From assembly GCF_902729405.1 (NCBI RefSeq), contig NZ_LR746496.1, positions 1,922,001 to 1,986,000 on the forward strand: 64,000 nt of DNA, read 5' to 3'. Under the pieces are notes generated by a model. The model made no database searches. It saw only the letters and a program-made list of their open reading frames with translations, and had not been told where the DNA came from. The stretch comes from Acididesulfobacillus acetoxydans (lineage in GTDB: Bacteria > Bacillota > Desulfitobacteriia > Desulfitobacteriales > Desulfitobacteriaceae). Position numbers and translations under genes: made by a program. Below, piece by piece: positions 2,041-20,787 of the stretch (position 1 is the first letter of the stretch; every line of letters starts with the position of its first letter).

Positions 2041-5000
2041 ATGGCCAACGGACAATTTTCGGATACGCAAATGCAACAGCTTTCCCAAAGGCTCCGGAAC
2101 AATCGCTTTGGCGATGTCATGGTGGTCGGGGGCGGGGTCAGCGGCATTCAGGCGTCTCTCGACTTAGCCTCTTCGGGTTTCAAAGTTTACCTGGTGGATA
2201 AAGCGCCGAGCATCGGGGGGCACATGGCCCAACTGGACAAGACCTTTCCCACCAATGAATGCGCTATGTGAATTCTCAACCCCAAACTGGTCGAGGTCGG
2301 CCGGCATCCCAATATAGAGGTCATGACTTACACTGAGGTTGACAAGGTGGAAGGAGAGGCGGGGGACTTTCAGGTAACTCTGATTAAAAAACCAAAATAT
2401 ATCGATGAGAGCCAATGCACGGGCTGTACCGCCTGTGTGGAGTACTGCCCGGTCAAATACCCGGACTCGTTTAACCAGGAAATATCGCAGAATAAAGCCA
2501 TCCATATCTACTTCGCCCAAGCCATTCCCCTGGTCACCTATATTGATGACAGTTGCCTTTATCTGAAAGAGAAGAAGTGCAGAATTTGCGAGGGAATCTG
2601 CAAGAATCAGGCGATTGATTTTAATCAGAGAGCGGAGAAAATAGAAGTCAATGTCGGGGCGGTGATTCTGGCCCCCGGACTTGAGCCTTACGATCCAGGG
2701 TTACGGCATGACTATGGTTACGGAAAGTTTGCCAACGTGGTCACCAGTCTCGATTATGAACGGCTCATGTGCGCGACGGGGCCTTATCAAGGGGAGATTT
2801 TGCGCGCAACTGACCACAAGCATCCCCATAAAATAGCTTGGATTCAATGTGTCGGTTCCCGGCAGGTTATCCCCGGAGGGAACAGCTATTGTTCCGCTGT
2901 CTGCTGCACCTATGCTCAGAAACAGGTGATATTGACTAAAGAACATGAGGCAGAGGCTGAGTGCACCATCTTCCACAACGATATTCGCTCCTATAATAAG
3001 GATTTTGAGCGCTTTTACCAAAGAACGGAGAGCCTTCCCGGAGTGCGGTTTATCAGAAGTTATGTGTCTATCGGCCGGGAGATTCCCGAAAGTAAGAATG
3101 TCACCCTTCGCTACTCCACAACGGATGAGGGGGTAAAAGAAGAGGAATTTGATCTGGTGGTCTTGTCCGTGGGTTTAAACCCTCCGGCTGACTATGTGAA
3201 GCTGGCGAACAAGTTCGGTCTTGAGCTCAATGCCCACGGCTTTTGCAAAACCAACCCGGTGAACCCCATGGAGGCCACGAGACCCGGGATATTTGTCAGC
3301 GGAGCTTTCCGGGGTCCCACGGATATTCCGGAAGCGGTCTTCAGCGCCAGCGCGGCCGGCTCTGAATGCGGCGAACTCTTGGACTACCGGCGGGGGCGGC
3401 TGACTCAGGCAAGAATATATCCGCCCGAGAAAGATGTGTCTCAAGAAGAGCCGCGCATAGGAGTCTTTGTCTGTCATTGCGGCGCGAATATCGGCCGGAT
3501 TGTGGATGTTCCCGCCACGGTGGAGTACGCTCTATCTTTGCCCCATGTTGTCTATGCTCAGGAACAACTCTTTTCCTGCGCAACAAATTCCGCCAAAGAG
3601 ATATCGGATATGACCCGGGAAAAAGGGCTGAACCGGGTGGTTGTCGCCGCTTGCTCCCCCAGAACCCTGGAGCCGTTATTTCGGGATACCGTGCGAGAAG
3701 CGGGAATCAATCAATATTACCTGGACATGGCCAATATCAGAGAACACAACTCCTGGGTTCACTCCAAAGAAAAAGAAGAATCGACCCGGAAAGCCCAGGA
3801 TCTGATCCGGATGTCGGTCGCCCGCGCCCGCCATTTAGAGCCCTTGCAAGAATTTGACCTGCCTGTCAACAAGGCGGCCTTGGTGGTCGGAGGAGGATTG
3901 GCCGGGATGACCGCCGCTCTCAGCCTGGCCAATCAGGGGCATGAAGTTTACTTGGTGGAAAAGGAACCGGAGCTGGGGGGAATGGCGCGCAAGATGTATT
4001 TCACCCTCGAGGGGCTGGATGTTCAGAAGTATGTGCACGATCTTGTGCAGAGGATTTATCGGCACCCCCTGGTCCACGTCCGCACGGGGGCTGTCATCAC
4101 GGAGACGGGCGGTTATGTGGGGAATTTCGTCACCCAGGTGAACTCCGGTGGCCGGATCGCGGAAATAAGACATGGCGCCACTCTTCTTGCGACAGGGGCT
4201 GAGGAGTATCGGCCCACTGAATATCTTTACGGTGAGGACGATCGGGTCGTGACCAACCTCGAGTTGGAAGAACAAATCGCCCGGGAGGAGGAAAGGCTGG
4301 TCGACGCCCGGAGTCTTGTGATGATCCAGTGCGTGGGCTGCCGCAATGAAGAGAGAAATTACTGCAGTCGCGTCTGTTGCAGCCATACGCTCAAGAACGC
4401 TCTGAATCTAAAAAAACTAAATCCCCAGCTGGATATTTACATTCTCTTCCGGGATATGAGAACGTACGGGTACTATGAGGACTATTACCGGGAAGCGGCG
4501 GGCAAAGAGGTGAGGTTCATTCGCTATGAACCCGCGGACCGACCCCAGGTAGAAGCGGCGGTGGAGGAAGGCCGGGACGTTTTGAGGGTAAGCGTAACCG
4601 ATCCCATCTTAGGCAAGAAGCTGGAGATCGATGCGGATGTCATTGCTTTGGCGGCCGCTGTCATTCCCTCCGCGGGCAGTGAAGAGGCAACCCGGTTATT
4701 TAAAGTCAATGCGAATCCGGACGGGTTTTTCAAAGAAGCGCATGTCAAATTAAGACCGGTGGATTTTGTGGCCGACGGCATCTATCTGTGTGGGCTCGCC
4801 CACTATCCCAAGTTCATTACGGAAACGTTGAGCCAGGCTTATGCCGCGGCCGGGCGGGCCTTAACCCTTCTCTCCCATGATACGGTGGTGGCTTCCGGTG
4901 CTGTCTGCGAGGTAGACGAACGCAAATGTATTGGCTGCGGAGCTTGTGTCTCGGCCTGTTCCTATGGCGCTGTTGAGTTGCGGGAGACGCGCCTGGGGAA

Positions 5001-5163
5001 AAAGGCTGTTGTCAATCCGGTCCTCTGCAAAGGCGACGGTCTCTGTAACGCCAAGTGTCCCACCGGGGCCATTTCCCTTAAGCACTATACCGATGAAGAG
5101 ATCTTCAGCCAAATTGATGCCGCGCTTACAGACGTGCGGAGATCCGGTGCGGCAAGACAGTGA
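2041..5163 (+). CDS. bamE: BamE-like HdrA flavoprotein, selenocysteine-containing
   Basis: Reads as one 1040-aa protein if the in-frame TGA at 2269-2271 (codon 77) is selenocysteine; otherwise it splits into a 76-aa stub and a large headless frame. The local sequence NECAM-U-ILNPKL matches the conserved CAMC-ILxPKL cluster site of HdrA, with Sec in the second Cys position, a known Cys/Sec exchange in this family. It contains an FAD motif (VVGGGVSG about 24), a ferredoxin motif ([12 protein letters not shown] about 126), a second Cys set (about 180-190), a second HdrA-like FAD module ([12 protein letters not shown] about 618) and a C-terminal two-cluster ferredoxin ([11 protein letters not shown] about 965, then [12 protein letters not shown]). 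The start follows GGAGGTGA. HdrA proteins carry the flavin that splits electron pairs; here it would feed benzoyl-CoA reduction. Confidence 0.85.
2287..2304 (+). promoter_or_regulatory. Candidate bacterial SECIS hairpin of bamE
   Basis: Starting 15 nt after the UGA, CTGGTC-GAGGTC-GGCCGG can fold into a 6-bp stem (two G-U pairs) with a 6-nt loop containing G residues. Position and size fit a bacterial SECIS element read by SelB. The fold was made by eye, not computed. Confidence 0.45.
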
Positions 5164-5294: not shown

Positions 5295-6131
5295 GTGAGC
5301 GCCGAACTGGAATTTAAGCCGAGAATCTTAGGCTTTGTCTGCCATTGGTGAGGGTATGGCGCTGCCGATATGTCTGGAGTTTCCAGACTACAGTATACAA
5401 CCGAAAGCAGGCTTATTCGTGTCATGTGTTCCGGGAGAGTCGACCTGGCCTTTGTGTTCAGGGCCTTCTTAAAGGGAACGGACGGAGTGTTTATCGGGGG
5501 CTGCCGCCTGAATGAATGCAATTATGATACGCATGGGAATTACCATGCGCTGAACATGGTGCTTCTGGCTAAAAAAATCATGGAGCATATCGGGTTGAAT
5601 CCCGCAAGATTGAGGGTCGAATTTATGTCCTCCGGTGACGGCATCCGTTTTGCCGAAGTCATGAGTGAATTTGGCCGGAAAATCAAGGAGTTGGGCCCCC
5701 TGGGGCAGGGCGAAGGCATAGACGAAGAGACCGTAAAGTCCAAGCTGATGGAAGTCGCCAAGTTGGTCCCTTATATCAAGAGGGTGAAAAAGGATAAACT
5801 GGCGTCACGTCTGAACAATCCGGAACAGTACGATGATTTTTTCACGCGAGATGAGATAGATAGGTTATTTCGTGAGGTCACTTCCTATTATATTGATCCC
5901 GCCAAGTGCCAGGCTTGTATGATTTGCGCCCGAAGATGTCCGGCGGAGGCGATTATCAGTGTGAAGAATCAGGTCCACGTTATCGACCAGGAGAAATGCA
6001 TCAAGTGCGGAACTTGCTTTGAAGTCTGCCCTGAGCGTTTTGGCGCGGTGCGGGAGATTTTCGGCGCAGAGGTTCCGCCTCCTCCGCCTGAAGGAGAAAG
6101 GACCCTAAGCCGAAAGAAGTCGGCTCGGTAG
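5295..6131 (+). CDS. bamF: BamF-like MvhD subunit, selenocysteine-containing
   Basis: From the GTG at 5295 (after GGGAGGAAG) through an in-frame TGA at 5349-5351 (codon 19), this encodes 278 aa. The N-terminus reads FVCHW-U-GYGAAD, the MvhD/FrhD signature in which the second Cys of C-x-W-C is Sec. MvhD binds a [2Fe-2S] cluster and couples Hdr complexes to an electron donor. The MvhD domain (about 1-150, with GCRLNECNY near 70) is followed by a two-cluster ferredoxin (CQACMICARRCP 205-216 and CIKCGTCFEVCP 235-246) and a proline-rich tail. BamF of class II benzoyl-CoA reductases is known as an MvhD-like selenoprotein, and the gene directly follows bamE. Starting at the first ATG after the TGA (5370) would lose the cluster ligands. 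Confidence 0.87.
5372..5388 (+). promoter_or_regulatory. Candidate bacterial SECIS hairpin of bamF
   Basis: GTCTGG-AGTTT-CCAGAC is a perfect 6-bp stem with a 5-nt loop carrying G in its second position, beginning 20 nt after the UGA codon. This is the expected distance and shape for a bacterial SECIS element. Folding was done by eye. Confidence 0.6.
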
Positions 6132-6478: not shown

Positions 6479-6550
6479 CTAATCTAACCTAAAATTCAAA
6501 TCAACGAGATTGGAACCATCAGAATTGGATTGACCGCAGGAGGTGAGCTT

Positions 6551-9037
6551 GTGCAGAAGGTGTCGCTGTTTATCGACGGAAAAACGATCGAGGTGTCGGA
6601 GGGGACTTCGCTTTTAGAAGCCGCTCACCTGGCCGGGAGCTACATTCCGACCCTGTGCGCTCACCCCGATTTGCCTCCGGGCGGAGCCTGCGGCCTTTGT
6701 CTCGTGGAGGCGGGCTCGGAGGTCGTTCGTGCCTGTGAGACACCGGCGGCCCAGGATTTACAGGTTCAGACCGATACGGAAGAAATCCGGCGCTTGCGCC
6801 GGGACAATCTCTCGCACCTGCTCAAAGATCACCCTCACGCCTGTTTGACCTGTGCCCAAAAGGTGGGGTGCAGCCGGACCCAGTGTTCGAGCAACGTGGC
6901 GGTTAACGAACGCTGCTGTGCGAAGCTGGGGAACTGCGAAATTGAAAGAGTTGTTGAGCATGTGGGTTTACGGGAAGATTTGGGACGCTATGTCTATCCC
7001 GGTTTGCCCAAATTTACCGAAGAGCCGCTGTTTACGAGGGATTACAACCTTTGTATCGGCTGTCAGCGCTGTGTCCGGGCCTGTCGGGATTTAAGGGGTG
7101 TCGATGTTTTGGAGGCCTACGAGTGGAATGGACGCACTCTGGTTCGGGCCAAGGCGGAATCCCTGGTCGATTCGGGCTGCAGATTCTGTACGGCCTGTGT
7201 GGAAGTTTGTCCGACCGGGGCTTTGCTCGACAAAGACGTGAAAAGCGGCGAACGGGAAACGAATCTTGTTCCTTGCCGCGGGACTTGTCCCGCCGGAATT
7301 GACGTTCCGCGTTACGTGGACTATGTGGCGCGGGGGGAATATGGCAAAGCCCTGGCCGTTGTGCGGGAAAAGGTGCCTTTTCCGGGTGTTTTAGGTCGGG
7401 TCTGTTTTCATCCCTGTGAAGATGCCTGTCGCCGGGGGCAAGTCAGTGAGGCGGTGGCCATCTGCCGGTTAAAGAGATTCGCTGCCGACCACGGCGGTGT
7501 GGCTTGGAAAGAGAGGAGAAAACCGGCAAGGCCTACGGGTAAGAAAGTGGCGGTGGTCGGTTCCGGTCCGGCCGGTTTGACGGCGGCCCATTATCTGGCC
7601 CTGAAAGGACATTCCGTGACCGTCTTTGAAGCCCGCTCCCAGGCGGGTGGTATGCTGAGATTCGGGATTCCGGCTTATCGCCTGCCGGAGCATATCCTCA
7701 GGGAGGAAATAGCGGAGATTGAGGCCCTCGGTGTTGGCGTTATAACCCAGAGCCGGATTGAGAAGGCAGATGCCCTTTTAGAAGAAGGGTACGCTGCGGT
7801 GTTTGTCGCAGTGGGCGCCCAGAAAGGGGTGGCTCTCGCTATTCCCGGTGAAGACAGGGCTGGGGTCGTGCAGGGGATTGATTTTCTGCGCGGGGTGGCC
7901 CTGCGGGAAAATGCGGCGGTCGGGTCGCGGGTGGCCGTGATCGGCGGGGGAAATGTGGCCTTGGATGCCGCCCGGACGGCTCTGCGGCTCGGAGCGCAAA
8001 ATGTGACGGTGCTCTACCGGCGCAGCCGGGAGGAAATGCCCGCTTATGCGGGCGAGGTGGGTGAAGCGGCCCACGAAGGAGTTCAGTTTGAGTTCTTGTC
8101 GGCCCCGGTCAGGATCCAACAAGGGGGGACCTCCAACGGCAGGACGCTCAATGTAATTTGTCAACGCCAGGCTTTGGGCGCTCGGGACGGGAGTGGCCGG
8201 AGGAGGCCGCAACCGCTGCCGGGCAGCGAATTTGCCCGGGAATTCGACCAGGTTATCGTCGCGATTGGACAGGAGGTGGACTTACCGGAACACTTCGGTC
8301 CGGTTCTTGACGGCAAGGGGATCCGGGTGGATCCGGAAACCTTGATGACCGGACGGGTGGGTGTCTTTGCCGGTGGCGATGCCGTACTGGGTCCGGCTTC
8401 TGTGATTGAGGCGGTTGCTCAGGGCCGGCGGGCCGCCCGGGCCATGGATAAATTTCTGGGCGGAGACGGGGATATCTCTGAGGTCCTGTTGGATTATGAA
8501 GAGAGGAATCCCTGGCTTGGCCCCGAGGAAGGTTTTGCTTTAGCCGGCCGAGTGGGGGAGGCCAAGCGGCCCTGGCAAAAGAGCAAGCAGCAGGTCGCCT
8601 GCGGCGCTGAATCTTCCGCTTGCCCCACCGGTGAACTGTTCTATACCGCTTTCACCGAGGTCGACATCGGGCTGTTGGAGGAGATGGCGGAGGAAGAAGC
8701 AGGTCGGTGTCTCAAGTGCCAGCTCAGGCTTCGGCTGCGGGAAGCGCCCAGACCGCCGGAAAAGTGGCTCGTTTTTGACGCGAAGACCGTGGAACAGGTC
8801 CCCGAGACGGAGGGGGTCTATCAACTTCTCGACGCTGACAAAGAAATCATTAGTATCGTTGGCACAGCCAACCTGCGCGAGGCTTTGAAAGAGCAGCTGG
8901 GCAGGGAAAATGCCTGCTGCTTTGGCTATGAAGAAGACCGGATGTACACACAGAGGGAGAGCCAGCTGATGCAGCAGTTCTTGCAAGAACACGGGAGACT
9001 GCCGCAGGGAGCCGACGATCTGGATGATCTCTTCTAA
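6551..9037 (+). CDS. NuoG/GltD-like FeS flavoprotein (NAD(P)H:ferredoxin oxidoreductase type)
   Basis: An 828-aa protein starting at GTG 6551 behind AGGAGGTGA. Domains in order: NuoG-like [2Fe-2S] (C36, C47, C50), a His/Cys [4Fe-4S] segment (about 96-135), two [4Fe-4S] motifs (CIGCQRCVRAC about 168 and CRFCTACVEVCP about 214), a GltD-type FeS/helical domain (about 240-320), an FAD motif (VVGSGPAGLTAAH about 336), a pyridine-nucleotide motif (VIGGGNVALDAA about 464) and a C-terminal CLKC segment. The last ~90 residues contain GVYQLLDADKE-IISIVG, like a GIY-YIG fold without clear catalytic residues. It resembles oxidoreductases such as BzdV of class I benzoate clusters, which reduce ferredoxin from NAD(P)H. 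First gene behind the sigma-54 promoter. The actual donor and acceptor are inferred. Confidence 0.75.
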   Translation: MQKVSLFIDGKTIEVSEGTSLLEAAHLAGSYIPTLCAHPDLPPGGACGLCLVEAGSEVVRACETPAAQDLQVQTDTEEIRRLRRDNLSHLLKDHPHACLTCAQKVGCSRTQCSSNVAVNERCCAKLGNCEIERVVEHVGLREDLGRYVYPGLPKFTEEPLFTRDYNLCIGCQRCVRACRDLRGVDVLEAYEWNGRTLVRAKAESLVDSGCRFCTACVEVCPTGALLDKDVKSGERETNLVPCRGTCPAGIDVPRYVDYVARGEYGKALAVVREKVPFPGVLGRVCFHPCEDACRRGQVSEAVAICRLKRFAADHGGVAWKERRKPARPTGKKVAVVGSGPAGLTAAHYLALKGHSVTVFEARSQAGGMLRFGIPAYRLPEHILREEIAEIEALGVGVITQSRIEKADALLEEGYAAVFVAVGAQKGVALAIPGEDRAGVVQGIDFLRGVALRENAAVGSRVAVIGGGNVALDAARTALRLGAQNVTVLYRRSREEMPAYAGEVGEAAHEGVQFEFLSAPVRIQQGGTSNGRTLNVICQRQALGARDGSGRRRPQPLPGSEFAREFDQVIVAIGQEVDLPEHFGPVLDGKGIRVDPETLMTGRVGVFAGGDAVLGPASVIEAVAQGRRAARAMDKFLGGDGDISEVLLDYEERNPWLGPEEGFALAGRVGEAKRPWQKSKQQVACGAESSACPTGELFYTAFTEVDIGLLEEMAEEEAGRCLKCQLRLRLREAPRPPEKWLVFDAKTVEQVPETEGVYQLLDADKEIISIVGTANLREALKEQLGRENACCFGYEEDRMYTQRESQLMQQFLQEHGRLPQGADDLDDLF

Positions 9038-9146: not shown

Positions 9147-10046
9147 ATGGAGCGTACCCGTAAGGTCATACCGCTCAGCGAAGCCATTCGACGTTTTGTC
9201 CCGGACGATTGCCCATCCCTGGCCGTGGGCGGGATGCACATGCACAACAATCCCATGGCTCTCATCCGGGAGGTCATCCGTCAGAACAAGAAAATCAAGC
9301 GGCTCATTACCAGCCCCTCGGCCGACATTAACGCGGACCTCCTGTTGGGCAGCGGACTGGTCGAGGAAATCCTGACGGCTTACGTCGGGTTTGAACACTT
9401 GGGACTTGCCCCCAATTTCCGGCGGGCAGTGGAAAAGAAAACGGTGAAACTCTTAGAATGTGACGAGCCTTTCCTGGTCTATGGTTTCCAGGCGGGAGCC
9501 GGCGGTTTACCCTTTATTCCTTATCCCAAAGGACTGGAATTAAACGACCTGCACAAAATCGATCCGGAATTCTACCGCTTTACCACCGATCCCTATACGG
9601 GAGAGCAGGTGATGACAGCCGCCCCGCTCAAGCCCTCTGTGGCTTTGATTCACTGCCAGGAGGCGGATCCCTATGGGAACGCCATTTTCAAAGGAAGTGA
9701 ATTTACGGATCGGCAAATGATTTTGGCGGCGGAGACCGTCGTGTTGCAAGTGGAAAAAATCGTGCCCGATCTGGCGGCAAAATACGGCGCGACACGGGTC
9801 AATGTGCCCGGTTTCCTGGTTTCGGCAGTGGTCGAAGCGCCCTATGGTTGTCATCCCACCTCTTCGCACGGGTATTACCGCGATGATGAGGGACACCTCA
9901 GAGCCTACTTGCAAGCTTGCAAGAGTCCGGAGTCTTGGACGGAATATCTGCACCGGTATGTCTTGGACATCCCGGAAGAGGAATACGCGGCGACAATCGG
10001 CCGGGGACGGTTGAACAGCCTGAGAAGTGAGGGGGTGTTTGAGTGA
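9147..10046 (+). CDS. CoA-transferase family I subunit A (GctA/IpdA-like)
   Basis: A 299-aa member of the glutaconate CoA-transferase alpha/IpdA family, seen from AVGGMHMHNNPMALI near the N-terminus, AGAGGLPF (about 115), DPYGNAIFKG (about 173) and the C-terminal HPTSSHGYY segment (about 235). The start is ATG 9147, behind AAAGGAG; an upstream in-frame start at 9024 has no such site. It overlaps the partner gene by 4 nt (GTGA), which indicates translational coupling and a heteromer. Possible roles are CoA transfer to benzoate or a dicarboxylate, or a hydrolase like the steroid-ring enzyme IpdAB. The partner's missing catalytic Glu favours the second. Confidence 0.75.
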   Translation: MERTRKVIPLSEAIRRFVPDDCPSLAVGGMHMHNNPMALIREVIRQNKKIKRLITSPSADINADLLLGSGLVEEILTAYVGFEHLGLAPNFRRAVEKKTVKLLECDEPFLVYGFQAGAGGLPFIPYPKGLELNDLHKIDPEFYRFTTDPYTGEQVMTAAPLKPSVALIHCQEADPYGNAIFKGSEFTDRQMILAAETVVLQVEKIVPDLAAKYGATRVNVPGFLVSAVVEAPYGCHPTSSHGYYRDDEGHLRAYLQACKSPESWTEYLHRYVLDIPEEEYAATIGRGRLNSLRSEGVFE

Positions 10047-10912
10047 GCGCAAAGGACTATTCCGGGGACAAGGGGCATTCCCAAGAGACAGGAAACCCTA
10101 GGGAGTCTGGACGCCCTGAGGGGAAGGACGATGCGGGGGAAAAAGCTTATTCTGCGGCGGAATTAATGACCGTTGTTATGGCCCGTCACCTCCGTGACGG
10201 TGAAGTCGCCGTCATGGGGGCGGTGAGCATGATTCCTATGGCAGCTTGCCGTCTCGCTCAGGAAACCCACGCTCCCAATCTCTCGTACATTGCCGGCGGG
10301 AGCGGGGCGGTGAACCCGCGTCTGGAGCCTCTGGTTTTCTCCTCCTGTGCGGCGGAGAATCTGCGGGCCGACGCGATGCTGCCTTTGCCGGATGTGATCC
10401 TGCTGGAGGGGCACGGCAAACGTTTTGATGTTTTTTTCGGCGGCGGATTGCAAATAGACAAGTATGGCAATTGCAACCTCGTTTGCGTCGGGGATTGGCA
10501 CAACCCGCTGCTTAAAGGCCCGGGAACGGTGGGGCTGCCCTTTCTCCCCAGAGCCGGCCGGGCCGTGCTCTACACGACTGCGCATAATGCCCGGACTTTC
10601 GTGGAGAAAGTCGACTTTAACAGCGGCCCGGGTTTCTTGGACGGGCCCGAGACGTGGCTGGGCCAAGGATTGCCGGGCGAGGGCCCCGCGCTGGTCGTAA
10701 CTCCGCTCTGTGTGTTTGATTTTGAGGAGAGGAGCAAGGTGATGCGTCTTAAGTCCCTTCACCCCGGTGTGAGCCGGGAGGAGGTCGTGAGAAACACCGG
10801 ATTCAGACCCGCACTTCCGCCGGAGGTGCCTGTGACACCTGAACCCACTCTGTCTGAGTTAGTGATCCTGCGCCGGTTGGATGCGGCGGGGGTGTTAGGG
10901 AAGCTCGTCTGA
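10043..10912 (+). CDS. CoA-transferase-fold subunit B lacking the catalytic Glu (IpdB-like)
   Basis: 289 aa, with a hydrophilic N-terminal extension of about 30 residues before the family core begins (AELMTVVMARHL). Family features: GGGLQIDKYGNCN about 134 and CVFDFEE about 227. In glutaconate CoA-transferase the beta subunit Glu54 in VESG forms the enzyme-CoA thioester; the aligned stretch here is APNLSYIAGGSG, with Gly in that place. IpdB, a ring-opening hydrolase subunit of steroid catabolism, also lacks this Glu. A hydrolase or lyase acting on a cyclic or beta-dicarbonyl CoA ester is therefore more likely than a CoA transferase. The alignment is by eye. Confidence 0.7.
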   Translation: MSAKDYSGDKGHSQETGNPRESGRPEGKDDAGEKAYSAAELMTVVMARHLRDGEVAVMGAVSMIPMAACRLAQETHAPNLSYIAGGSGAVNPRLEPLVFSSCAAENLRADAMLPLPDVILLEGHGKRFDVFFGGGLQIDKYGNCNLVCVGDWHNPLLKGPGTVGLPFLPRAGRAVLYTTAHNARTFVEKVDFNSGPGFLDGPETWLGQGLPGEGPALVVTPLCVFDFEERSKVMRLKSLHPGVSREEVVRNTGFRPALPPEVPVTPEPTLSELVILRRLDAAGVLGKLV

Positions 10913-11270
10913 GGTGTACATCAGACATCAGAGGTGTACATCAGAAATCAGAGGTGTACATCAGAAATCAGAGGTGTACATCAGAAATCAGAGGTGTACA
11001 TCAGAAATCAGAGGTGTACATCAGAAATCAGAGGTGTACATCAGAAATCAGAGGTGTACATCAGAAATCAGAGGTGTACATCAGAAATCAGAGGTGTACA
11101 TCAGAAATCAGAGGTGTACATCAGAAATCAGAGGTGTACATCAGAAATCAGAGGTGTACATCAGAAATCAGAGGTGTACATCAGACATCAGAGGTGTACA
11201 TCAGACATCAGAGGTGTACATCAGAAATCAGAGGTGTACATCAGACATCAGAGGTGTACATCAGAAGCCG
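10911..11270. repeat. 18-copy 20-bp tandem repeat
   Basis: GAGGTGTACATCAGAAATCA is repeated 18 times head to tail with a period of exactly 20 bp; the only variation is A/C at one position (AGAAATCA/AGACATCA) and a divergent last copy (TCAGAAGCCGG). The first copy overlaps the stop codon of the preceding gene. All three forward frames stay open because the unit has no stop, but there is no sign of a real protein. Confidence 0.97.
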
Positions 11271-11430
11271 GAGGCCGGGATGCTTCTGCTTTTAATAAGC
11301 TCCGGCGGGCTCTGGGAGGACCTCTATTTTTTGAGGTAGGGCTTGTGTAGCGGAGGTCTGGTTTAGTTCAGGGGCTAGGGACGATTGACCGGATACCGAA
11401 CGAGAATTTGCCGGAAAAGGAGTGTTCCGT

Positions 11431-13035
11431 ATGAGCCAGGTTAGCCTGCAGATTCCCGAACAATTCAATGTGGCCGTCGAACTGGTGGACAAAAATTTGC
11501 AATTGGGCCGGGGAGACAAGGTCGCAATCTATTACCAAGATCAGACTTTTACCTATGAACAGGTCTTCCGTCTGGTCAATAAAGCGGGAAATGCTTTAAA
11601 GAGCCTGGGGGTGGAACGGGAGAACAGAGTGCTGCTTCTCCTGCTCGATTCGCCGGAGTTCGTCGCCACTTTTTTCGGGGCCATCAAAATGGGTGCCGTG
11701 CCGATTCCGACCAACACTATTCTCAAAGCCCAGGATTACCTCTACTTACTCAATGACAGCCGGGCCAAAGTGGCTGTGGTCAGTGAGGCGCTCGTTCCGG
11801 TGCTGGAATCGATCCGGGGAGAATTGCGTTACCTTGAGCACTTGGTTGTGGCCGGACAGGCCGGACCCGGACAAATGTCCTATGATGAGCTGATTCAGGC
11901 CGCTTCAGATGAATTGGAGCCGGCGGACACGCATAAGGATGAACCGGCTTTCTGGCTCTACAGTTCGGGCAGCACTGGCTTTCCCAAGGGGGCGGTGCAT
12001 CTCCAGCATGACATGATTGTCAGTGCCGATCTCTATGCCAAGCCCATTTTAAATATCAACGAAAACGATATCTGTTATTCCGTGGCTAAACTCTTCTTTG
12101 CTTACGGGTTGGGTAATGCTCTCTACTTTCCTTTCCGGGTGGGCGCTTCTACGGTCTTGGTGCCGGAGGCGCCCAAACCGGAAACTGTCTTTGCCGCGGT
12201 GCGCCGCTACCAGCCGACTCTTTTCTATGGAGTTCCCACTTCTTACTCCGCTCTGCTTCAGGCGGCGGACCGTATTCCGGATGTCGACATGCATTCGATT
12301 CGACTTTGCACTTCGGCCGGGGAGTCCCTGCCCAAGTCGGTCTACGAGGCTTGGCGGAAAAAATTCAATCTGATCATTTTGGATGGAATCGGCTCGACGG
12401 AAATCACGCACATCTTCATCACCAACCGCTTGGGGGAAGCGAAACCGGGGAGTACGGGCAAGCCGGTGCCGGGTTATGAGGCCAAACTGGTGGACGCGGA
12501 AGGCAATCCCGTGCCTACTGGGGAAATCGGCACTTTAATGGTCAAGGGGGACAGTATCTGTGCTTATTACTGGAACAAGCATGAAAAGAACAAACAGAGC
12601 TTCTGCGGGCCCTGGATCAACACCGGTGACAAATACCTGATCGATGAAGAAGGCTTCTTTTGGTATGTGGGTCGGACGGACGACATGATCAAGCCCGGGG
12701 GGATTTGGGTTTCTCCGATTGAGGTGGAGAATACGCTGATGGAACATCCGTCGATTCTGGAATGTGCGGTCATCGGGGTGCGGGACAGTGACAACTTGGA
12801 GAAGCCGAAAGCCTACGTCGTGCTCAAAGAGGGGTTTAGCGCGTCGACCGACCTGGCGAAAGAGATTCAGCAGTTTGTCAAGAGCCGTATCGCTCCCTAC
12901 AAATTTCCGCGTTGGGTTGAGTTTGTCGAGGAGTTGCCCAAGACAGCCTCCGGTAAGATGCTGAGGTATCGGTTGAGACAATTGAACCAGCCGGCGGGTA
13001 CGAGCGCAAGGGCGGACGAGACAGAGGAGGAGTAG
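11431..13035 (+). CDS. badA: Benzoate-CoA ligase
   Basis: 534 aa, AMP-forming acyl-CoA synthetase (ANL) family. Visible are the P-loop-like SSGSTGFPKGA (about 172-182), GSTE (about 325), NTGDKYLIDEEGFFWYVGR (about 398-416) and the C-terminal catalytic Lys region ELPKTASGKMLR (about 505-516). The opening QFNVAVELVDKNLQLGRGDK is typical of benzoate-CoA ligases rather than fatty acid ligases. It activates benzoate (or a close aromatic acid) to the CoA thioester in the cytoplasm, the entry step of the pathway. ATG 11431 has AAAAGGAG 8 nt upstream; the in-frame GTG at 11422 lies inside that ribosome site. It sits between the CoA-transferase-fold pair and the SDR/thiolase genes. Confidence 0.88.
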   Translation: MSQVSLQIPEQFNVAVELVDKNLQLGRGDKVAIYYQDQTFTYEQVFRLVNKAGNALKSLGVERENRVLLLLLDSPEFVATFFGAIKMGAVPIPTNTILKAQDYLYLLNDSRAKVAVVSEALVPVLESIRGELRYLEHLVVAGQAGPGQMSYDELIQAASDELEPADTHKDEPAFWLYSSGSTGFPKGAVHLQHDMIVSADLYAKPILNINENDICYSVAKLFFAYGLGNALYFPFRVGASTVLVPEAPKPETVFAAVRRYQPTLFYGVPTSYSALLQAADRIPDVDMHSIRLCTSAGESLPKSVYEAWRKKFNLIILDGIGSTEITHIFITNRLGEAKPGSTGKPVPGYEAKLVDAEGNPVPTGEIGTLMVKGDSICAYYWNKHEKNKQSFCGPWINTGDKYLIDEEGFFWYVGRTDDMIKPGGIWVSPIEVENTLMEHPSILECAVIGVRDSDNLEKPKAYVVLKEGFSASTDLAKEIQQFVKSRIAPYKFPRWVEFVEELPKTASGKMLRYRLRQLNQPAGTSARADETEEE

Positions 13036-13104
13036 CCGGATGAGAGTGCAAGTCGGACAACTTGCTGATGTGCCGGGATTGTGCCAGGGGGGAGGAATAA
13101 AAGG

Positions 13105-13851
13105 GTGAAACTGCAAGGAAAGGTCGCTCTGATCACCGGGGCTAAAGAAGGTATCGGTAAGGCAGTGGCTATCGCTTTTGCGGCTGAGGGGGCGGATGTG
13201 GCTTTGGTGAGCCGGTCCATCACCCGTGCCGACGAGGTGGTGCGGGAAGTAGAGCAAAGGGGGCGGAGGGCTTGTGTGGTGCAAACGGATGTGGCCAGGC
13301 AGGATTCGGTCCAGGCCATGGTCGCCCAGGTGAAAGCCGAACTGGGCCCGATCGACATCCTTGTCAACAACGCCGGTTTGACGCGCCCGGCCATGCTGCT
13401 CAAAATGACTGAGGAGCAATGGGACGAAGTGATTAATGTCCATCTCAAAGGGACTTTTCTCTGTACGCAGGCCGTGGCCAAAGAGATGGCGGCAAGGAGA
13501 AGCGGACGCATTCTCAACGTCACTTCCTCGGCGGGGCTGCAGGGGACCATCGGCCAGGTGAACTATACGGCGGCCAAGGGCGGCATCAGTGCTTTTACCA
13601 AATCAGCGGCTAGGGAACTGGCTAAATACGGGATCACGGTCAATGCCATCTCTCCTTTCGCGGAGACGAAGATGACCGAGAAAATCGCCTCTGACCCGAA
13701 ATTGCGCGACAAATACCTGGAAAGGGTGCCTTTGGGCCGTTTCGGCCAGCCGGAGGAGATGGCCCCGGGGTTTGTATTTCTGGCTTCTGCGGAAGCCGGC
13801 TATATCACGGGCCAGATTCTCTGCATCGACGGAGGGATGATCATGCGCTGA
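13105..13851 (+). CDS. Short-chain dehydrogenase/reductase (FabG-like)
   Basis: 248 aa, classical SDR. NAD(P) motif TGAKEGIG (about 12-19), NNAG (about 87), and the catalytic triad in NVTSSAGLQG (Ser about 138) and YTAAKGG (Tyr/Lys about 151/155). The C-terminal ITGQILCIDGG is typical of FabG. The start was placed at GTG 13105 because GGGAGG lies 10 nt upstream and the family N-terminus KLQGKVALITG begins there. Between benzoate-CoA ligase and thiolase, it probably oxidises a 3-hydroxyacyl-CoA from the ring-opened pimeloyl-type chain. The exact substrate cannot be read from sequence. Confidence 0.82.
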   Translation: MKLQGKVALITGAKEGIGKAVAIAFAAEGADVALVSRSITRADEVVREVEQRGRRACVVQTDVARQDSVQAMVAQVKAELGPIDILVNNAGLTRPAMLLKMTEEQWDEVINVHLKGTFLCTQAVAKEMAARRSGRILNVTSSAGLQGTIGQVNYTAAKGGISAFTKSAARELAKYGITVNAISPFAETKMTEKIASDPKLRDKYLERVPLGRFGQPEEMAPGFVFLASAEAGYITGQILCIDGGMIMR

Positions 13852-14121
13852 GGCCGTGTGAGCGCAGTGGGGAGAAAGTGGAGGCGGATCATTGGACACG
13901 CGGAAGTCGTTTCCACGGCTTGGCGGCCGGAGGGTCACCTGCGCCGGATACGGGCACTCGGACCTGTGAAAGCGGATACGGAAGTGCAGGAACCAAAGCG
14001 AGTATGGGAGAGTAGAAGCAGGAGCGGACATTAGCGGAAGAGTGGATGTGGGAAGGCGGATACGGAGGGCTTTGTGAGAGCCCTGGATTGCAGAAAAGAG
14101 GAAAAGTTTAGGAGGGTTCGG
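13852..14121. other. Purine-rich spacer with GCGGATACGGA words
   Basis: A 270-bp gap with no supported gene. GCGGATACGGA-like words recur (near 13945, 13974 and 14056) in a degenerate purine-rich background. No T-run terminator or clear promoter was seen. The thiolase ribosome site TTAGGAGGG is at the right end. Confidence 0.5.
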
Positions 14122-15312
14122 ATGAAAGAGGTAGTGATCGTCAGTGCGGTGCGGACGGCCATCGGCACGATCGGCGGTACCCTCAAGGACATTCCGCCGC
14201 AGGATCTGGGGGCCATCGTGGTCAAGGAAGCGCTGGCGCGGGCGGGGGTAAGTCCGCAAATTGTGGAAGAGGTCATTATGGGGTGGTCCCGCCAGACCAC
14301 GGAGGCTGCCAACATTGCCCGTGTCATCTCCCTTTTGGCCGGGATTCCCGAAGAGGCGGCGGCCTTTACCGTGCACCGCCAGTGTGCCTCCGGCCTTCAG
14401 GCCATTAGCAGCGGAGCTCAGGAGATCCAAACGGGGAGGGCGGAGGTGGTCGTGGCCGGCGGGACGGAAAGTCTGAGCAGGGCACCGTTCTATCTCAAAA
14501 ACGCGCGCTACGGCTACGGTTCCGGAGACGGTGTCTTGGTGGACTCCCTGACGGAAGCCGGTCCGGGGGGACAGCCCCTTTCCCTCTATGGTGCCGTTTC
14601 TATGGGCGATACAGCCGAAAATGTGGCCGAACAGTTTCGTGTTTCCCGGGCGGATCAGGACGCCTTTGCCCTGCAAAGCCAGCAACGCTATCGGAAAGCC
14701 TTGGAAGCGGGGCTTTTTCAAGAGGAAATTGTACCGGTTAACGTGCCTATCCGCAAAGGCACCCTCGTCTTTGCGACGGATGAACACCCACGGGATACGA
14801 GCCTGGAGAAACTGGCCGCCTTAAAGCCCGCCTTTCGTCCCGGGGGATCCGTGACAGCCGGCAATTCTTGTGGCCGCAACGATGCCTCGGCCGCCGTGGT
14901 TTTGCTGTCGGCGGAGAAAGCCAATGAACTGGGTCTGAAGCCCATGGCCAGGTTGGTGACCGATGCCGTCGTGGGAGTGCCTCCGCAAATCATGGGGATT
15001 GGGCCGGTGCCGGCAGTGAGCAAGGCCTTGAAACAGGCGGGCTTAAGCGTAGAGGACATTGGATTGATTGAACTCAATGAAGCCTTTGCTTCCCAGTCCT
15101 TGGCCGTGATCCGGGAATTGGGGCTGGATGGGGAGAAAGTGAACGTCAACGGGGGTGCCATCGCCTTGGGCCATCCCATCGGGGCCACCGGGGCGCGGCT
15201 CATGACGACTTTGCTCCATGAAATGCGCCGCAGACAGACCCGTTACGGCATGGTGACCCTTTGCATCGGCGGGGGGCAGGGGATGGCCATGATCGTAGAA
15301 GGTATCTATTAA
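14122..15312 (+). CDS. Acetyl-CoA acyltransferase (thiolase)
   Basis: 396 aa, normal thiolase II. Nucleophilic Cys in [10 protein letters not shown] (about 90), NEAFASQ (about 318), [11 protein letters not shown] (about 350) and the second Cys in CIGGGQGMA (about 380) are all present. ATG 14122 follows TTAGGAGGG. In this setting it likely cleaves 3-oxopimeloyl-CoA or acetoacetyl-CoA in the lower benzoyl-CoA pathway. Confidence 0.88.
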
Positions 15313-15569: not shown

Positions 15570-16535
15570 ATGAGTCCACGTTTTACAGGAAAAGCGACGA
15601 GCGAATTTGATTTTCGGGAAGTCATTTACGAGAAAAAAGGCTGGGTCGCGACGGTCACGATCAACCGGCCCCATGTCTACAACTCTTACAGCACCCTGAC
15701 GTTGCAGGAATTGACCACAGCTTTTCGGGATGCCTCCTGGGATGACTCCGTGGCGGTGGTCGTGCTCACCGGAGCGGGGGAAAAGGCCTTTTGCTCGGGT
15801 GGGGATGTCAAAGAATATGCGGAGGACTACACGAAGAAGCCTAGGGATTACTGGAAGTGGATGGGAGTCTTTACGGAGTGCCATGACATCCTGCGCAATA
15901 TCGGCAAGCCCACGATTGCCCGGATTAACGGGATGGTGGTCGGCGGTGGCAATGAATTCAACATGGCATGCGATTTAGCTATTATGGTGGAGGATGCTTC
16001 GATTCAGCAAGTCGGAACGATGGTGGGCAGCGTGGCGGCCGGCGGGGCCACCCAGTGGCTTCCGATCATCGTCGGAGATCGGCGGGCGCGGGAAATGCTC
16101 TTTCTCAGTGAACCGGTTCCGGCCCAAAAATGCCTGGAATGGGGTTTGGTGAATCAGGTTGTACCGCGTGCTCAGCTGGATGAGGCGGTGGCCACGATGG
16201 CCGATAAGCTCGTGCACAAATTCCCCGAGTGTCTGCGCTACACGAAGCAGCAGACAAATTTCTGGAAAGACCTCGCCTGGAGTTCAACGGTGGGGCACGC
16301 CAAGGAATGGCTGGCTTTGCACTTTGCCTCGGTCGAGCCTTATGAAGGAATGAACGCTTTTGTCGAGAAGCGGCCCAAAGACTACATCGGCTTGCGCACG
16401 AAGGCGGCCGAGGGGGGCTCCAGTGAGTTTCTTTACGGTCCGTACACCCACACGTGTCCGAGCTGCGGCGCCAAAGGAATTCCTGAAGCGTTCAAGTTCT
16501 GCGGCGTCTGCGGAACCGAGTTGAAGCGGGGCTGA
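15570..16535 (+). CDS. oah: 6-oxocyclohex-1-ene-1-carbonyl-CoA hydrolase-like, with zinc ribbon
   Basis: 321 aa, crotonase superfamily. The stretches YNSYST, LTGAGEKAFCSGGDVKEYAE (about 67-86), INGMVVGGGNEF (about 120) and GSVAAGGATQWLP (about 152) match the ring-opening hydrolase Oah/BamA/BzdY better than ordinary enoyl-CoA hydratases. That enzyme hydrates and hydrolytically opens 6-oxocyclohexene-carbonyl-CoA to 3-hydroxypimelyl-CoA. It is shorter than the usual ~375-aa form because the insertion after VNQVVP is missing. It also ends in a rubredoxin-like zinc ribbon, CPSCGAK...FCGVCG (about 296-315), not expected in Oah. It lies just before the class I reductase genes. BadI-type hydrolase is the alternative. 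Confidence 0.72.
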   Translation: MSPRFTGKATSEFDFREVIYEKKGWVATVTINRPHVYNSYSTLTLQELTTAFRDASWDDSVAVVVLTGAGEKAFCSGGDVKEYAEDYTKKPRDYWKWMGVFTECHDILRNIGKPTIARINGMVVGGGNEFNMACDLAIMVEDASIQQVGTMVGSVAAGGATQWLPIIVGDRRAREMLFLSEPVPAQKCLEWGLVNQVVPRAQLDEAVATMADKLVHKFPECLRYTKQQTNFWKDLAWSSTVGHAKEWLALHFASVEPYEGMNAFVEKRPKDYIGLRTKAAEGGSSEFLYGPYTHTCPSCGAKGIPEAFKFCGVCGTELKRG

Positions 16536-16568: not shown

Positions 16569-17696
16569 ATGTTCACACAATTTAAGCAATGGTACACGAA
16601 CCGACATGATTATGCCAGGGACTGGAAAGAAAGAAGCGGGAGCAAGGTTATTGGCTATTTTTGTACCTATGTGCCGGAGGAAATCCTCTACGCCGCCAAT
16701 GTCCTGCCTGTCCGGATTCTGGGTGGACACGAGCCTCAAGATGTGACTGAACCGCATATTTTCGGCATGTACTGTCCCTTCTCCCGCGATGTACTGGCCC
16801 AAGGGCTTAAAGACAGGTTTTCCTATCTGGACGGTATTACCATTGCCCAGTCCTGTCTGCACATACGGCAGGCTTACACAAGCTGGGATTTGCATAGACC
16901 GACGGAGTTCAGTTACTATCTGCCCATGCCCCACAATGTCCAAAGCGCTCATTCCCGTACCTTCTTGCGCGCGGAGCTGGAACAATTCAAAGAAGCGGTG
17001 GAACAATGGACGGGTCAAACGATCACGGACGCAGATTTAGATCGAGGTATTGATATTGTCAACACTAACCGGCGCCTGCTTAAGCGGATCTTCGAACTGA
17101 GGAGACAGGAAAACCCGCCGCTTAGCGGACAAGAAGCGATGTACCTGGTGCTTTCCAGTCAAATGACGGACAAACGGGAGCACAACCAAGCCTTGGAGAA
17201 ACTGTTGGAGCAACTGCCTGAGCGGGAGCTCAAGCGTCCGACAGGGGAAAGGCTCATGATCCTGGGCAGCGAGAATGATGATATTCCCTTTACGGAAATG
17301 GTTGAACAAGTCTGCGGGGCTACCTTTGTCATAGATGACCATTGTACGGGAACGCGCTACTTCTGGAATGAAAGCGTGCCCAATGAGGACCGCCTCTTGG
17401 AGATCGCCAACCGCTATGTCGATCGGGTGCCCTGCCCCACCAAAGATTGGCCGCAGCGCAAGCGGCTGGAACACATTCAGAAATTGATTGAGGATTATGA
17501 CGTTCAAGGAGTTATTGTGATCCAGCAAAAATTCTGTGATCCGCACGAACTGGATATCCCGGCGATTCAAAAGGTTTTGAAAGGAAAAGGGATTCCCACC
17601 CTGTTTCTGGAGTTTGATGTTACCGCTCCACTCGGGCCGTTCAGGATCCGGGTCGAGGCTTTCCTGGAAATGATGCGGCAAGAGGACTTGTTCTAA
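16569..17696 (+). CDS. bcrC: Class I benzoyl-CoA reductase subunit C (BcrC/BzdN type)
   Basis: 375 aa of the 2-hydroxyacyl-CoA dehydratase/benzoyl-CoA reductase family. Typical features: [21 protein letters not shown] near the N-terminus, CPFSRD and SCLHIRQAY (Cys ligands for the active-site [4Fe-4S] cluster, about 74 and 97), and [18 protein letters not shown] (about 253). The protein pairs with subunit B to hold the cluster and substrate for two-electron reduction of the benzoyl-CoA ring. The gene starts 33 bp after the oah-type gene behind GAGAGGAG and is 17 bp from the next subunit. Other dehydratase family members (HgdB) are less likely given the neighbours. Confidence 0.87.
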
Positions 17697-17713
17697 ATAG
17701 GGAGGGCAATAGC

Positions 17714-19021
17714 ATGAGCACACAGATCTATCCGACCGAACCCTTGCAGCTTTGGGGCAAGGCCAAGGAATTACGGGAGAAATACTATCTTGACTACCGG
17801 GATGCCCATGAGAAGGGGGGACTGCGCTGGGCCGGAGGGGCCTGGTCCTTTGATGCCGTTCCGGCCGGGCTGGGAAGGGACGTCTGCTCTTTAACCAGTG
17901 AACCCTATGGGGCGACCTTGGCCCATAATAAAGAGCTTTCCCTGGAATGTTTGGAAGCCTCGGAAAATGCGGGTTATGCCCGCGACCTCTGCTCCTATAT
18001 GCGATTGTACTGGGGATCCATTTTGATCGATAAGTATCCTTATGGCGGCGGGTATCCCAAACCGGACTTCATTTGGCAAGACCATATTTGCTGCAGCCAC
18101 GCCAAATGGTACCAAGTGGTGTCCGATTTAGAAGGCGGAATTCCCATGTGGGACGTCGATGTGGCGGCAGGTCCTTATAAAGACGTCACTCCGGCCAAAA
18201 TCAAATACATCGTGGACCAGCTCCAGGATGGGGTCGAATGGCTGGAAAAAACGACCGGTCGGAAATTCGACGACGAACTCTTCATCGAGGCGGTCAAAAA
18301 CGAGATGCGCAGCACCTCCCTCTGGGCGGCAGTGTGCGCCGAGAACAAAGCGGTGCCCGCCCCCCTTGAGGAGAAAACCATGTATTCTCTCTACGTCTTG
18401 GCGACTTTGAGCAAGGCGTCCCGGGAAGTGGCGGATTTCTACGCCGAGCTTCTGGCAGAGGTTAAAGATCGGGTGGCCAGGGGGATTGCCGCCGTCGGTA
18501 ACGAACAGGTCCGCCTCATGTCCGATACCCAGCCGCCTTGGGCCTTCCTCAAGATCTTCCGTTATCTGGAACGATACGGGGCAGTTTCCGTGGGTTCCCT
18601 CTACACTTTTGGTTTGGAGGGTATCTGGGAAGTCAAGGAAGACGGGAGCTGGGGTCCGCGCACCACACCCATGGAAAAAGGGATCGAGATTAAAACCCGT
18701 CAACAAGCGATGGAACTGATGGTGGACTGGAACCTCTCCAAACCGGAATGGCAGCATTTTTATCACCCCCAGTTAAAGACCGAGATGATGCTGCGCATCG
18801 CCAAAGAATGGAAACTCAATGGCATCATGCTTCACTATAACCGCGGCTGCGAAGGTTTAAGCTTGGGGATTGCCGAAAATCGCCTCGGACTTCTGAAAGC
18901 GGGTTTTCCGGTCATGACCTTTGAAGGAAATATGGGTGATGAGCGCGAGTTTGACGAAAATATGACCATGGCCCGGGTGGACGCTTTTATGGAAAGCCTG
19001 GGTGTGAAGAAAATACGCTGA
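17714..19021 (+). CDS. bcrB: Class I benzoyl-CoA reductase subunit B (BcrB/BzdO type)
   Basis: 435 aa, the usual length of BcrB/BzdO. Visible are [18 protein letters not shown] (about 56), [17 protein letters not shown] (cluster ligands, about 122-140), ETKMYSL-type core residues and a C-terminal [12 protein letters not shown] (about 374). It forms the catalytic heterodimer with the preceding gene product. The start follows GGGAGGGC and the spacing is tight, so the two are cotranscribed. The homologous sequence length and the paired ATPase genes downstream support the class I assignment rather than 2-hydroxyglutaryl-CoA dehydratase. Confidence 0.87.
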
Positions 19022-19033
19022 TTCTTAAGCGAT

Positions 19034-19075
19034 CCTGCAGTCGCCGCAAATCGGGCCGCCATCGGCGACTGCAGG
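19034..19075 (+). other. 13-bp intercistronic hairpin
   Basis: CCTGCAGTCGCCG and its exact inverse CGGCGACTGCAGG flank a 16-nt loop, just after the bcrB stop. There is no T-run, so it is not a simple terminator. It may mark an mRNA processing or stability site separating catalytic and ATPase subunit messages. Confidence 0.6.
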
Positions 19076-19222
19076 CTGGGGAAAGTGAAGATGGCTTGTG
19101 GCAAAGGATGCGGGTTTGGGAAAGCGCATGTAAGTTTGTCGCCGTGAGTGCGGGCCGGGCTAAACGCATGTTGGGTTTGTCGTAACGACTGAGGGCTTGA
19201 CTCTGACGAAGGGGGTTGCAAA

Positions 19223-19993
19223 ATGATTACAGTAGGAATCGACAGCGGTAACCGCAATACCAAAGCCGTGGTCTTGAAAGACGGGCAAGTTATCGGCAAG
19301 GCGCTGATTTTGACGGGGTTTGACGCCAATGAATCGGCGAGGCAAGCTTACGAAACGGCCGTGCAGGCGGCCCGGATCAACCCGGCTGAGGTAGCGGCTG
19401 TCGTATCGACGGGTGTGGGGCGCAACGAAGTGAAATTTGCTCAGGAAAATATCACGGAGATCGGTTCAGCGGCAAAGGGAGCACGTTATTTTGTGCCCAC
19501 GGTGAACACCGTCATTGATCTGGGGGCCGAAGAAGGCAGGGCGATTAAGCTGACATCTGACGGCAAAATCGCTGATTTTGCCAGTAACGAAAAATGCGCC
19601 GCCGGAGCAGGCTCTTTCGTCGAGTCCATGGCCAGGGCTTTACAGACCACTCCGGAAGAAATGGGTCCCCTGTCTATGAAATATGGCAAAGAAGTTCCGA
19701 TGAATGCCCAGTGTGTCGTCTTTGCGGAATCCGAGGTGGTATCCCTCATTCACCAAAAAACTCCGAAGGAGGACATTGCCCGGGCCGTGCACGATGGGGT
19801 ATCCAACCGCGTGAGTTCGATGGTACGCAGGGTAGGTCTTTTAGACGACCTGGCACTTATCGGTGGTCCGGGGCGTAACCAAGGTCTGGTTCAATCCCTT
19901 AAAGATGACTTACAAAAGGAGATCAAGGTGCCGGAGGACCCGGATTACGTCAGCGCGTTGGGAGCAGCCCTTTATGCGGTGGAGATCACGTAG
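19223..19993 (+). CDS. bcrD: Class I benzoyl-CoA reductase ATPase subunit (BcrD/BzdP type)
   Basis: 256 aa, ASKHA-fold activator ATPase (BadF/BadG/BcrA/BcrD family). Phosphate-binding GIDSGNRNTKAVVL (about 4), CAAGAGSFVESMA (about 126, bridging-cluster Cys) and NAQCVVFAESEVV (about 163, second Cys), then GGPGRNQGL (about 214). Two such subunits share a [4Fe-4S] cluster and hydrolyse ATP to push low-potential electrons into the BcrBC cluster. GGGGG precedes the ATG. It is separated from the second ATPase gene by about 790 bp of repeats. Confidence 0.83.
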   Translation: MITVGIDSGNRNTKAVVLKDGQVIGKALILTGFDANESARQAYETAVQAARINPAEVAAVVSTGVGRNEVKFAQENITEIGSAAKGARYFVPTVNTVIDLGAEEGRAIKLTSDGKIADFASNEKCAAGAGSFVESMARALQTTPEEMGPLSMKYGKEVPMNAQCVVFAESEVVSLIHQKTPKEDIARAVHDGVSNRVSSMVRRVGLLDDLALIGGPGRNQGLVQSLKDDLQKEIKVPEDPDYVSALGAALYAVEIT

Positions 19994-20480
19994 GAGGCCG
20001 GATGCCGGAGGCCGGATGCCAGAGGTCAGAGGCCGGATGCCAGAGGTCAGAGGCCGGAGGTCAGAGGGCGGAGGCAGGAGGCCGGAGGTTAGAGGTTAGA
20101 GGTTAGAGGTCAGAGGCCGGATGCCGGAGGTCAGAGGCCGGATGCCGGAGGTCAGAGGCCGGATGCCGGAGGTCAGAGGCCGGATGCCGGAGGTCAGAGG
20201 CCGGATGCCGGAGGTCAGAGGCCGGATGCCGGAGGTCAGAGGCCGGATGCCGGAGGTCAGAGGCCGGATGCCGGAGGTCAGAGGCCGGATGCCGGAGGTC
20301 AGAGGCCGGATGCCGGAGGTCAGAGGCCGGAGGCCAGAGGTCAGAGGCCGGATGCCGGAGGTCAGAGGCCGGATGCCGGAGGTCAGAGGCCGGATGCCAG
20401 AGGTCAGAGGCCGGATGCCGGAGGTCAGAGGCCGGATGCCGGAGGTCAGAGGCCGGATGCCAGAGGTCAGAGACCGGAAG
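19994..20480. repeat. About 20-copy 21-bp tandem array inside the reductase operon
   Basis: Directly after the bcrD stop codon, GAGGTCAGAGGCCGGATGCCG is repeated; 17 consecutive 21-bp units run from about 20115 to 20470, after a less regular lead-in from 19994. Since 21 is a multiple of 3, both strands show long open frames coding for monotonous heptads (MPEVRGR forward). These have no relation to known proteins. Confidence 0.95.
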
Positions 20481-20544
20481 TACGGGGTCCGGAGTTCGAG
20501 GCTCAAAGTTCGCGGTCAGACGGATGAGGCGCGAGGGTGGATAG

Positions 20545-20770: not shown

Positions 20771-20787
20771 GAAGGAGGTTGAATCCT

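Follow-up and report, generated by a model that had tools for sequence, protein, structure and literature searches.

In a 64,000-nucleotide stretch of the Acididesulfobacillus acetoxydans genome (contig NZ_LR746496.1, positions 1,922,001 to 1,986,000), hereafter the window, two adjacent genes encode the alpha and beta subunits of a CoA-transferase-like pair that, as judged from its sequence, has the catalytic residue of IpdAB, a hydrolase of steroid degraders, and not that of the transferases. The pair probably stands in for one of the standard water-adding enzymes of the benzoyl-CoA pathway, most likely the ring hydratase. Anaerobic aromatic degradation centres on this pathway, which has Oah (bamA) as its usual marker gene; to our knowledge its dienoyl-CoA hydration has so far been done by crotonases. 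We tentatively propose that a heteromer of CoA-transferase fold acting as dienoyl-CoA hydratase (Dch), together with the crotonase ECH1, may make up another version of the benzoyl-CoA ring pathway that occurs in several phyla and has escaped notice. Surveys that use Dch or Oah/bamA as a marker would miss these genomes, because benzoyl-CoA reductase is present while, by profile, Dch is absent and Oah almost absent. If the proposal is true, this transferase fold, already put to non-transferase use in IpdAB and AibAB, would also serve to add water to a reduced ring. In the literature we found no report tying IpdAB-like genes to benzoyl-CoA reductase.

Active-site residues, fold and distribution of the pair

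Both subunits are CoA_trans (PF01144) proteins, and their open reading frames share 4 bases of overlap. Their best structure-sequence matches are glutaconate CoA-transferase GctAB (PDB 1poi), AibAB (5mzw series) and IpdAB (6co6): among solved structures, phmmer gave E-values of 1e-29 (1poi_A), 5e-26 (5mzw_A) and 2e-24 (6co6_A) for alpha and 1e-26 (1poi_B) for beta. The original prediction had placed a Gly (IAGGSG) at the position of the catalytic Glu54 of GctB. Indeed, in the pairwise alignment to 1poi_B, beta Gly86 (codon 10298-10300, in I83-A-G-G-S-G88) stands opposite Glu54. The clade formed by the pair and its closest relatives has a one-residue insertion at this site, and a multiple alignment may move the partner to Ser87; with either residue as partner, an acidic residue is absent. 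The loss was also rightly said to be common to IpdB, since RHA1 IpdB is reported to carry Gly57 at this position (PMC5380842).

The alpha segment E104-C-D-E107 (Glu107 codon 9465-9467) aligns with EMDE of IpdA, DYSQ of GctA and EHDG of AibA. PDB entry 6coj, whose title names RHA1 IpdAB E105A with COCHEA-CoA, has, compared with 6co6, an Ala exactly at the last position of EMDE, and alpha Glu107 is for this reason the counterpart of RHA1 IpdA Glu105. The latter we take, from the PDB titles, to be the catalytic residue. Glu107 is conserved in 18 of the 19 aligned rows, the exception being the alpha subunit of a Chloroflexi metagenome-assembled genome (MAG) with Ala (L101:9031-9942), which has no benzoyl-CoA reductase nearby. 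The transferase-like pairs of this order show the reverse, with the beta Glu present and alpha Glu107 absent. The retained counterpart of IpdA Glu105 and the lost transferase Glu give the pair a residue set of the IpdAB rather than the transferase type.

In Heliophilum fasciatum, alpha and beta are fused into one reading frame (L096:9419-11161). An AlphaFold2 model of this fusion, of moderate confidence (pLDDT 72, pTM 0.71), has the CoA-transferase fold. Its alpha half matches 1poi_A (Z 29.9), 5mzw_C (29.1) and 6co9_A (29.0), tied within error; for the beta half the match is AibB (Z about 21). With such near-equal Z scores, the fold cannot tell the functions of GctAB, AibAB and IpdAB apart. 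In the alpha tree, a phylogeny having been suggested beforehand, 18 rows, the pair among them, form a single group (99/97), apart from the IpdA-like rows, which have their own group (100/100). The description of the pair as IpdAB-like therefore stands for the active site, with the transferase Glu gone and the IpdA Glu kept, and fails for ancestry, orthology with IpdAB being ruled out by the separate clade. The nearest outsiders, from plasmids of Rhizobium ACO-34A and Rhodococcus opacus, keep Glu107 too.

A genome scan yielded 17 loci with alpha subunits 51-92% identical. They come from Firmicutes (Peptococcaceae CEB3, Desulfosporosinus sp. I2, Paradesulfitobacterium ferrireducens, Heliophilum and MAGs) and, outside this phylum, from Thermoplasmata/Methanomassiliicoccales archaea, Chloroflexi, Dormibacterota and one delta MAG. 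The pair is not a chance feature, because in five relatives an alpha subunit 75-92% identical occurs with the same neighbour genes. We read the neighbourhoods of 19 loci (the window, the 17 scan loci and that of genome G472): the distance from the pair is at most about 10 kb for benzoyl-CoA reductase genes in 11 of them and at most about 12 kb for ECH1 in 16. Co-location of all three is seen in Firmicutes, archaea, Chloroflexi and Dormibacterota. In the last of these it takes the form of a compact operon of four reductase-type subunits, for which the reductase models score best, yet below cut-off, together with ECH1, alpha, beta and a short-chain dehydrogenase/reductase (SDR) with BadH as best model. 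In MAG SKS1.bin126 (L095:10686-11672), beta is broken by one non-TGA stop, which reflects gene decay or a fault in the assembly.

Apparently vacant pathway steps and the proposed role

Between the reductase and 3-hydroxypimelyl-CoA, the pathway comprises a hydration, an oxidation and then a hydration plus ring cleavage (PMC5742626). In profile searches of 74 genomes from the order and 14 clade genomes, Dch (TIGR03189) stayed below cut-off throughout, peaking at 112 bits in the order and at 153 bits in the clade (the delta MAG). As a reference, strong Dch genes in the delta sample reach 430-440 bits, and for weaker ones, adjoining Oah, the score is about 194-230 bits. Oah exceeded its cut-off in a single clade genome, Desulfosporosinus sp. 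I2, and not in the window's own genome. In turn, the clade alpha subunit was found in none of the 12 delta genomes from the top of the Dch ranking (175-440 bits).

The crotonase ECH1 has Oah (TIGR03200) as its best model at 191 bits, short of the cut-off of 464, and BadI at 184 bits. ECH1 and Oah keep the first crotonase Glu, have Gly in place of the second and share the motif GSxxxGGAT, whereas the Dch sequences examined keep both glutamates; ECH1 is without a stretch present in Oah. In the crotonase tree, where some delta rows are the neighbouring Oah gene, ECH1 shares a group with Oah and MenB that is separate from Dch and the ordinary hydratases (100/99). The neighbour of bamB is ECH1 in genomes G048, G472 and G506 and Oah in G021, G028 and G031; Desulfosporosinus sp. 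I2 is a case of Oah in this place. ECH1 orthologues are rare (5 of the 398 genomes of the phylum sample), and the pair was found in all ECH1-bearing genomes of this sample except G506, whose contig ends at the expected place. Given its active-site residues of Oah type and its position next to bamB, where Oah otherwise stands, ECH1 probably carries out the ring opening.

With oxidation and ring opening thus covered, the pair is the sole enzyme left without a role, and the hydration would fall to it by elimination. Desulfosporosinus sp. I2 has Oah and the pair without ECH1, which leaves the Dch step vacant; this gene set fits hydration by the pair and fits ring hydrolysis by it less well. The pair would then be a heteromeric water-adding enzyme of type I CoA-transferase fold, acting downstream of benzoyl-CoA reductase on a dearomatised six-membered-ring CoA thioester. 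That it does so, and specifically at the Dch/BzdW step, we regard as quite possible, if still more doubtful than assured. Alpha Glu107 may serve as general base, with water entering at the beta carbon of the thioester, a ring atom; without the beta Glu, an acyl-enzyme anhydride could not form. Oxidation would follow by the Had-like alcohol dehydrogenase (ADH) or the SDR, and ECH1 or Oah would then open the ring. Residues, fold, clade and gene neighbourhoods are observed here, as is the lack of Dch (and nearly always of Oah) in profile searches; from these data we infer which substrate and reaction belong to the pair and how it divides the roles with ECH1. A chemical precedent is the retro-aldol hydrolysis of COCHEA-CoA by IpdAB (PMC5380842), which in our reading begins with water addition to a cyclohexene-carboxyl-CoA.

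Several points weigh against this assignment, which we infer by elimination and from one informative genome. We know of no enzyme of CoA-transferase fold that acts as a dienoyl-CoA hydratase, and the characterised IpdAB cleaves a ring. Moreover, the Desulfosporosinus-type genomes G028 and G031 (the latter only 67% complete) have Oah in clusters with Bam genes (G028:C58, L086 and L087; G031:C29, L089), G028 also with SDR and thiolase, and contain no recognisable Dch, no pair and no Had-like ADH. Absence by profile is therefore no proof of a vacant step, and an unrecognised crotonase could be the Dch in all these genomes. Genome G022 speaks neither for nor against the assignment: bzdP/Q and Had are present, bzdN/O and the pair were not found, and the recovered Oah pieces stop at contig edges.

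The original prediction envisaged an unrecognised ring-cleaving step catalysed by the pair. It is unlikely, in our estimate, that the pair itself hydrolyses and opens the ring as IpdAB does, although the substrate of IpdAB has the same ring skeleton (PMC5380842), the catalytic Glu is common to the pair and IpdA, and 13 of the 14 clade genomes are without Oah. ECH1, which groups with Oah, is without the second hydratase Glu kept by the Dch sequences examined and exchanges places with Oah beside bamB, is the better ring-opening candidate, and the pair would rather fill a known vacant step. Furthermore, a retro-aldol reaction on the unsubstituted ring would, as we reason, yield an aldehyde, and an aldehyde oxidoreductase is not obvious in the minimal operon. 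Our first idea, the pair as a simple replacement of Oah, was demoted once ECH1 proved Oah-like and was seen to swap position with Oah. A variant in which the pair shares Oah's work with ECH1, the latter alone not covering both water additions, could draw on the bifunctionality of Oah (PMC5742626), on the nearly equal scores of ECH1 for Oah and BadI and on the stretch of Oah that it lacks; we nevertheless hold it for improbable, as Desulfosporosinus sp. I2 keeps the pair despite a full Oah and Dch would still be missing.

Two further functions have very little probability in our view. One is an AibAB-like decarboxylation of glutaconyl-CoA to crotonyl-CoA at the pathway end: AibAB has the same fold, is without the transferase Glu, decarboxylates a glutaconyl-CoA (PMC7756340) and fits the fusion model as well as IpdAB, but AibA has Gly for the alpha Glu, which is almost invariant in the clade, and the Dormibacterota operon holds ring-proximal enzymes only, with no acyl-CoA dehydrogenase beside the pair. 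The other, equally slight, is a CoA-transferase or thioesterase that functions in the absence of the beta Glu; it might, for instance, form benzoyl-CoA or hydrolyse an intermediate of the pathway. The closest match by E-value is indeed glutaconate CoA-transferase, and an altered-Glu transferase can turn hydrolase (title of PDB 9cq2); however, the anhydride-forming Glu is missing clade-wide whereas it is present in the transferase-like pairs of this order, and a gene of the benzoate-CoA ligase family is already there. Hydration of the dearomatised ring is the role that we favour for the pair.

Gene neighbourhood and relatives with a probable selenocysteine

The neighbours of the pair are listed in Table 1. 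Benzoate-CoA ligase, SDR and thiolase are found as originally claimed, in an anaerobic aromatic cluster, whereas bzdN/O/P/Q (16569-21702) and bamB had been overlooked; the latter lies just upstream of the window (G000:C1:1919858-1921837) and matches PDB 4z3w (E=0, 1110 bits). A context of 2-hydroxyglutaryl-CoA dehydratase and glutaconate CoA-transferase, which has the HGD-D and activase families in common with this cluster, was dismissed for the window, where bzdN, bzdO and bzdQ all exceed their cut-offs.

Table 1. Genes of the window and TGA-bearing relatives of the alpha subunit (aa, amino acids; positions without a locus prefix refer to the window)
Feature	Position	Strand	Remarks
Alpha subunit (IpdA/GctA/AibA-like)	9147-10046	+	299 aa; PF01144 71 bits, above cut-off
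Beta subunit (IpdB/GctB/AibB-like)	10043-10912	+	289 aa, GTG start; PF01144 54 bits, above cut-off
Benzoate-CoA ligase family protein	11422-13035	+	TIGR02262 662 bits, cut-off 375
SDR, putative 3-hydroxypimelyl-CoA dehydrogenase or Had	13081-13851	+	TIGR01830 282 bits, BadH 207 bits; conserved neighbour
Beta-ketothiolase	14074-15312	+	TIGR01930 472 bits, above cut-off
ECH1, Oah-like crotonase with C-terminal zinc-ribbon-like tail; proposed ring-opening hydrolase	15570-16535	+	TIGR03200 191 bits, cut-off 464
BzdN, benzoyl-CoA reductase subunit	16569-17696	+	TIGR03190 504 bits, above cut-off
BzdO, benzoyl-CoA reductase subunit	17714-19021	+	TIGR03191 722 bits, above cut-off
BzdP-like ATPase/activase	19223-19993	+	TIGR00241 226 bits, above cut-off
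BzdQ-like ATPase/activase	20779-21702	+	TIGR03192 428 bits, above cut-off
Had-like ADH	24022-25044	+	best model TIGR03201 273 bits, below cut-off 339
Acyl-CoA dehydrogenase	27378-29156	+	NF058590 787 bits, above cut-off
BamC/D/E/F-like electron-transfer genes, class II benzoyl-CoA reductase	46-354, 613-1776, 2323-5163, 5370-6131	+	orthologous to Desulfosporosinus sp. I2 Bam cluster
TGA-bearing IpdA-like alpha	L049:7926-8702		
TGA-bearing IpdA-like alpha	L050:7647-8417		
TGA-bearing IpdA-like alpha	L051:8740-9459		
TGA-bearing IpdA-like alpha	L052:8511-9332		
TGA-bearing IpdA-like alpha	L053:11124-11909		
TGA-bearing IpdA-like alpha	L054:14434-15225		
TGA-bearing IpdA-like alpha	L017		
TGA-bearing IpdA-like alpha	L020		
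TGA-bearing IpdA-like alpha	L026		

Benzoyl-CoA reductase genes of both class II (bamB-F) and class I (bzdNOPQ) are found in this one region; Desulfotomaculum gibsoniae has both classes in one genome (PMC4148979). The place of BamI/H/G in Desulfosporosinus sp. I2 is occupied by an 835-aa protein with a NuoG-like N-terminus and a GltD-like NADPH oxidoreductase part (6530-9037). Adenine-deaminase-like (22250-24025) and amidohydrolase-like (25084-26082) genes are conserved across several clusters. Tandem arrays with units of 14-27 bp, including 20 bp x 17.8 and 21 bp x 23.1, are located between pathway genes (423-605, 10911-11266, 19993-20478 and 26953-27225).

Nine alpha relatives in the order carry one in-frame TGA that aligns exactly with Glu107 (EHT-U-P or EGS-U-T), each with a stem-loop resembling a selenocysteine insertion sequence (SECIS) about 15 bases 3' of the TGA. 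Bacterial SECIS elements are stem-loops shortly after the TGA. Homologues from Acetoanaerobium (L111) and Mycolicibacterium chubuense (L110) have Cys at the same position. The occurrence of TGA or Cys exactly at Glu107 points to a selenocysteine-containing family and suggests that this position matters for catalysis, and the TGA-bearing relatives are probably an undescribed selenoprotein family, whose alpha subunits standard gene callers would truncate. In the delta sample, with TGA counted irrespective of position, such relatives occur in G185 and G120. NCBIfam has no specific model for the clade of the pair nor for the selenocysteine-type relatives.

Relation to known systems

IpdAB, the COCHEA-CoA hydrolase of steroid degraders (PDB 6co6, 6co9, 6coj and 6con), has the same fold as the pair (Z 29, 2.8 Å, fusion-model alpha half). 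In both systems the beta Glu is replaced by Gly and the alpha catalytic Glu is kept, and the 6-oxocyclohexene-carboxyl-CoA skeleton of the IpdAB substrate also occurs in the benzoyl-CoA pathway. In contrast, the alpha subunit is 29% identical to a Novosphingobium IpdA-type protein and belongs to a separate clade, with the motif GGMHMHNN versus GGWGSRRK of IpdAB, and the pair resides in an anaerobic benzoyl-CoA reductase (benzoate) cluster. AibA/AibB, the 3-methylglutaconyl-CoA decarboxylase of Myxococcus (PDB 5mzw), is likewise a non-transferase of this fold (Z 29.1 for alpha, about 21 for beta) that has lost the transferase Glu. It differs in having AibB Cys56, which is not essential (PMC7756340), where the pair has Gly86, in the lack of a Glu at 107 in AibA and in its unrelated pathway. 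GctAB (PDB 1poi) gives the best sequence E-value and a Z of 29.9 and, like the pair, has the CoA_trans fold in both subunits, but its catalytic beta Glu54, which forms the acyl anhydride, is absent from the pair and alpha Glu107 is absent from GctA. With the crotonase-type Dch (TIGR03189), a member of an unrelated fold family that it would replace, the pair has only the proposed reaction in common. Oah/BamA (TIGR03200), finally, is unrelated to the pair and would be its pathway partner, being a relative of ECH1.
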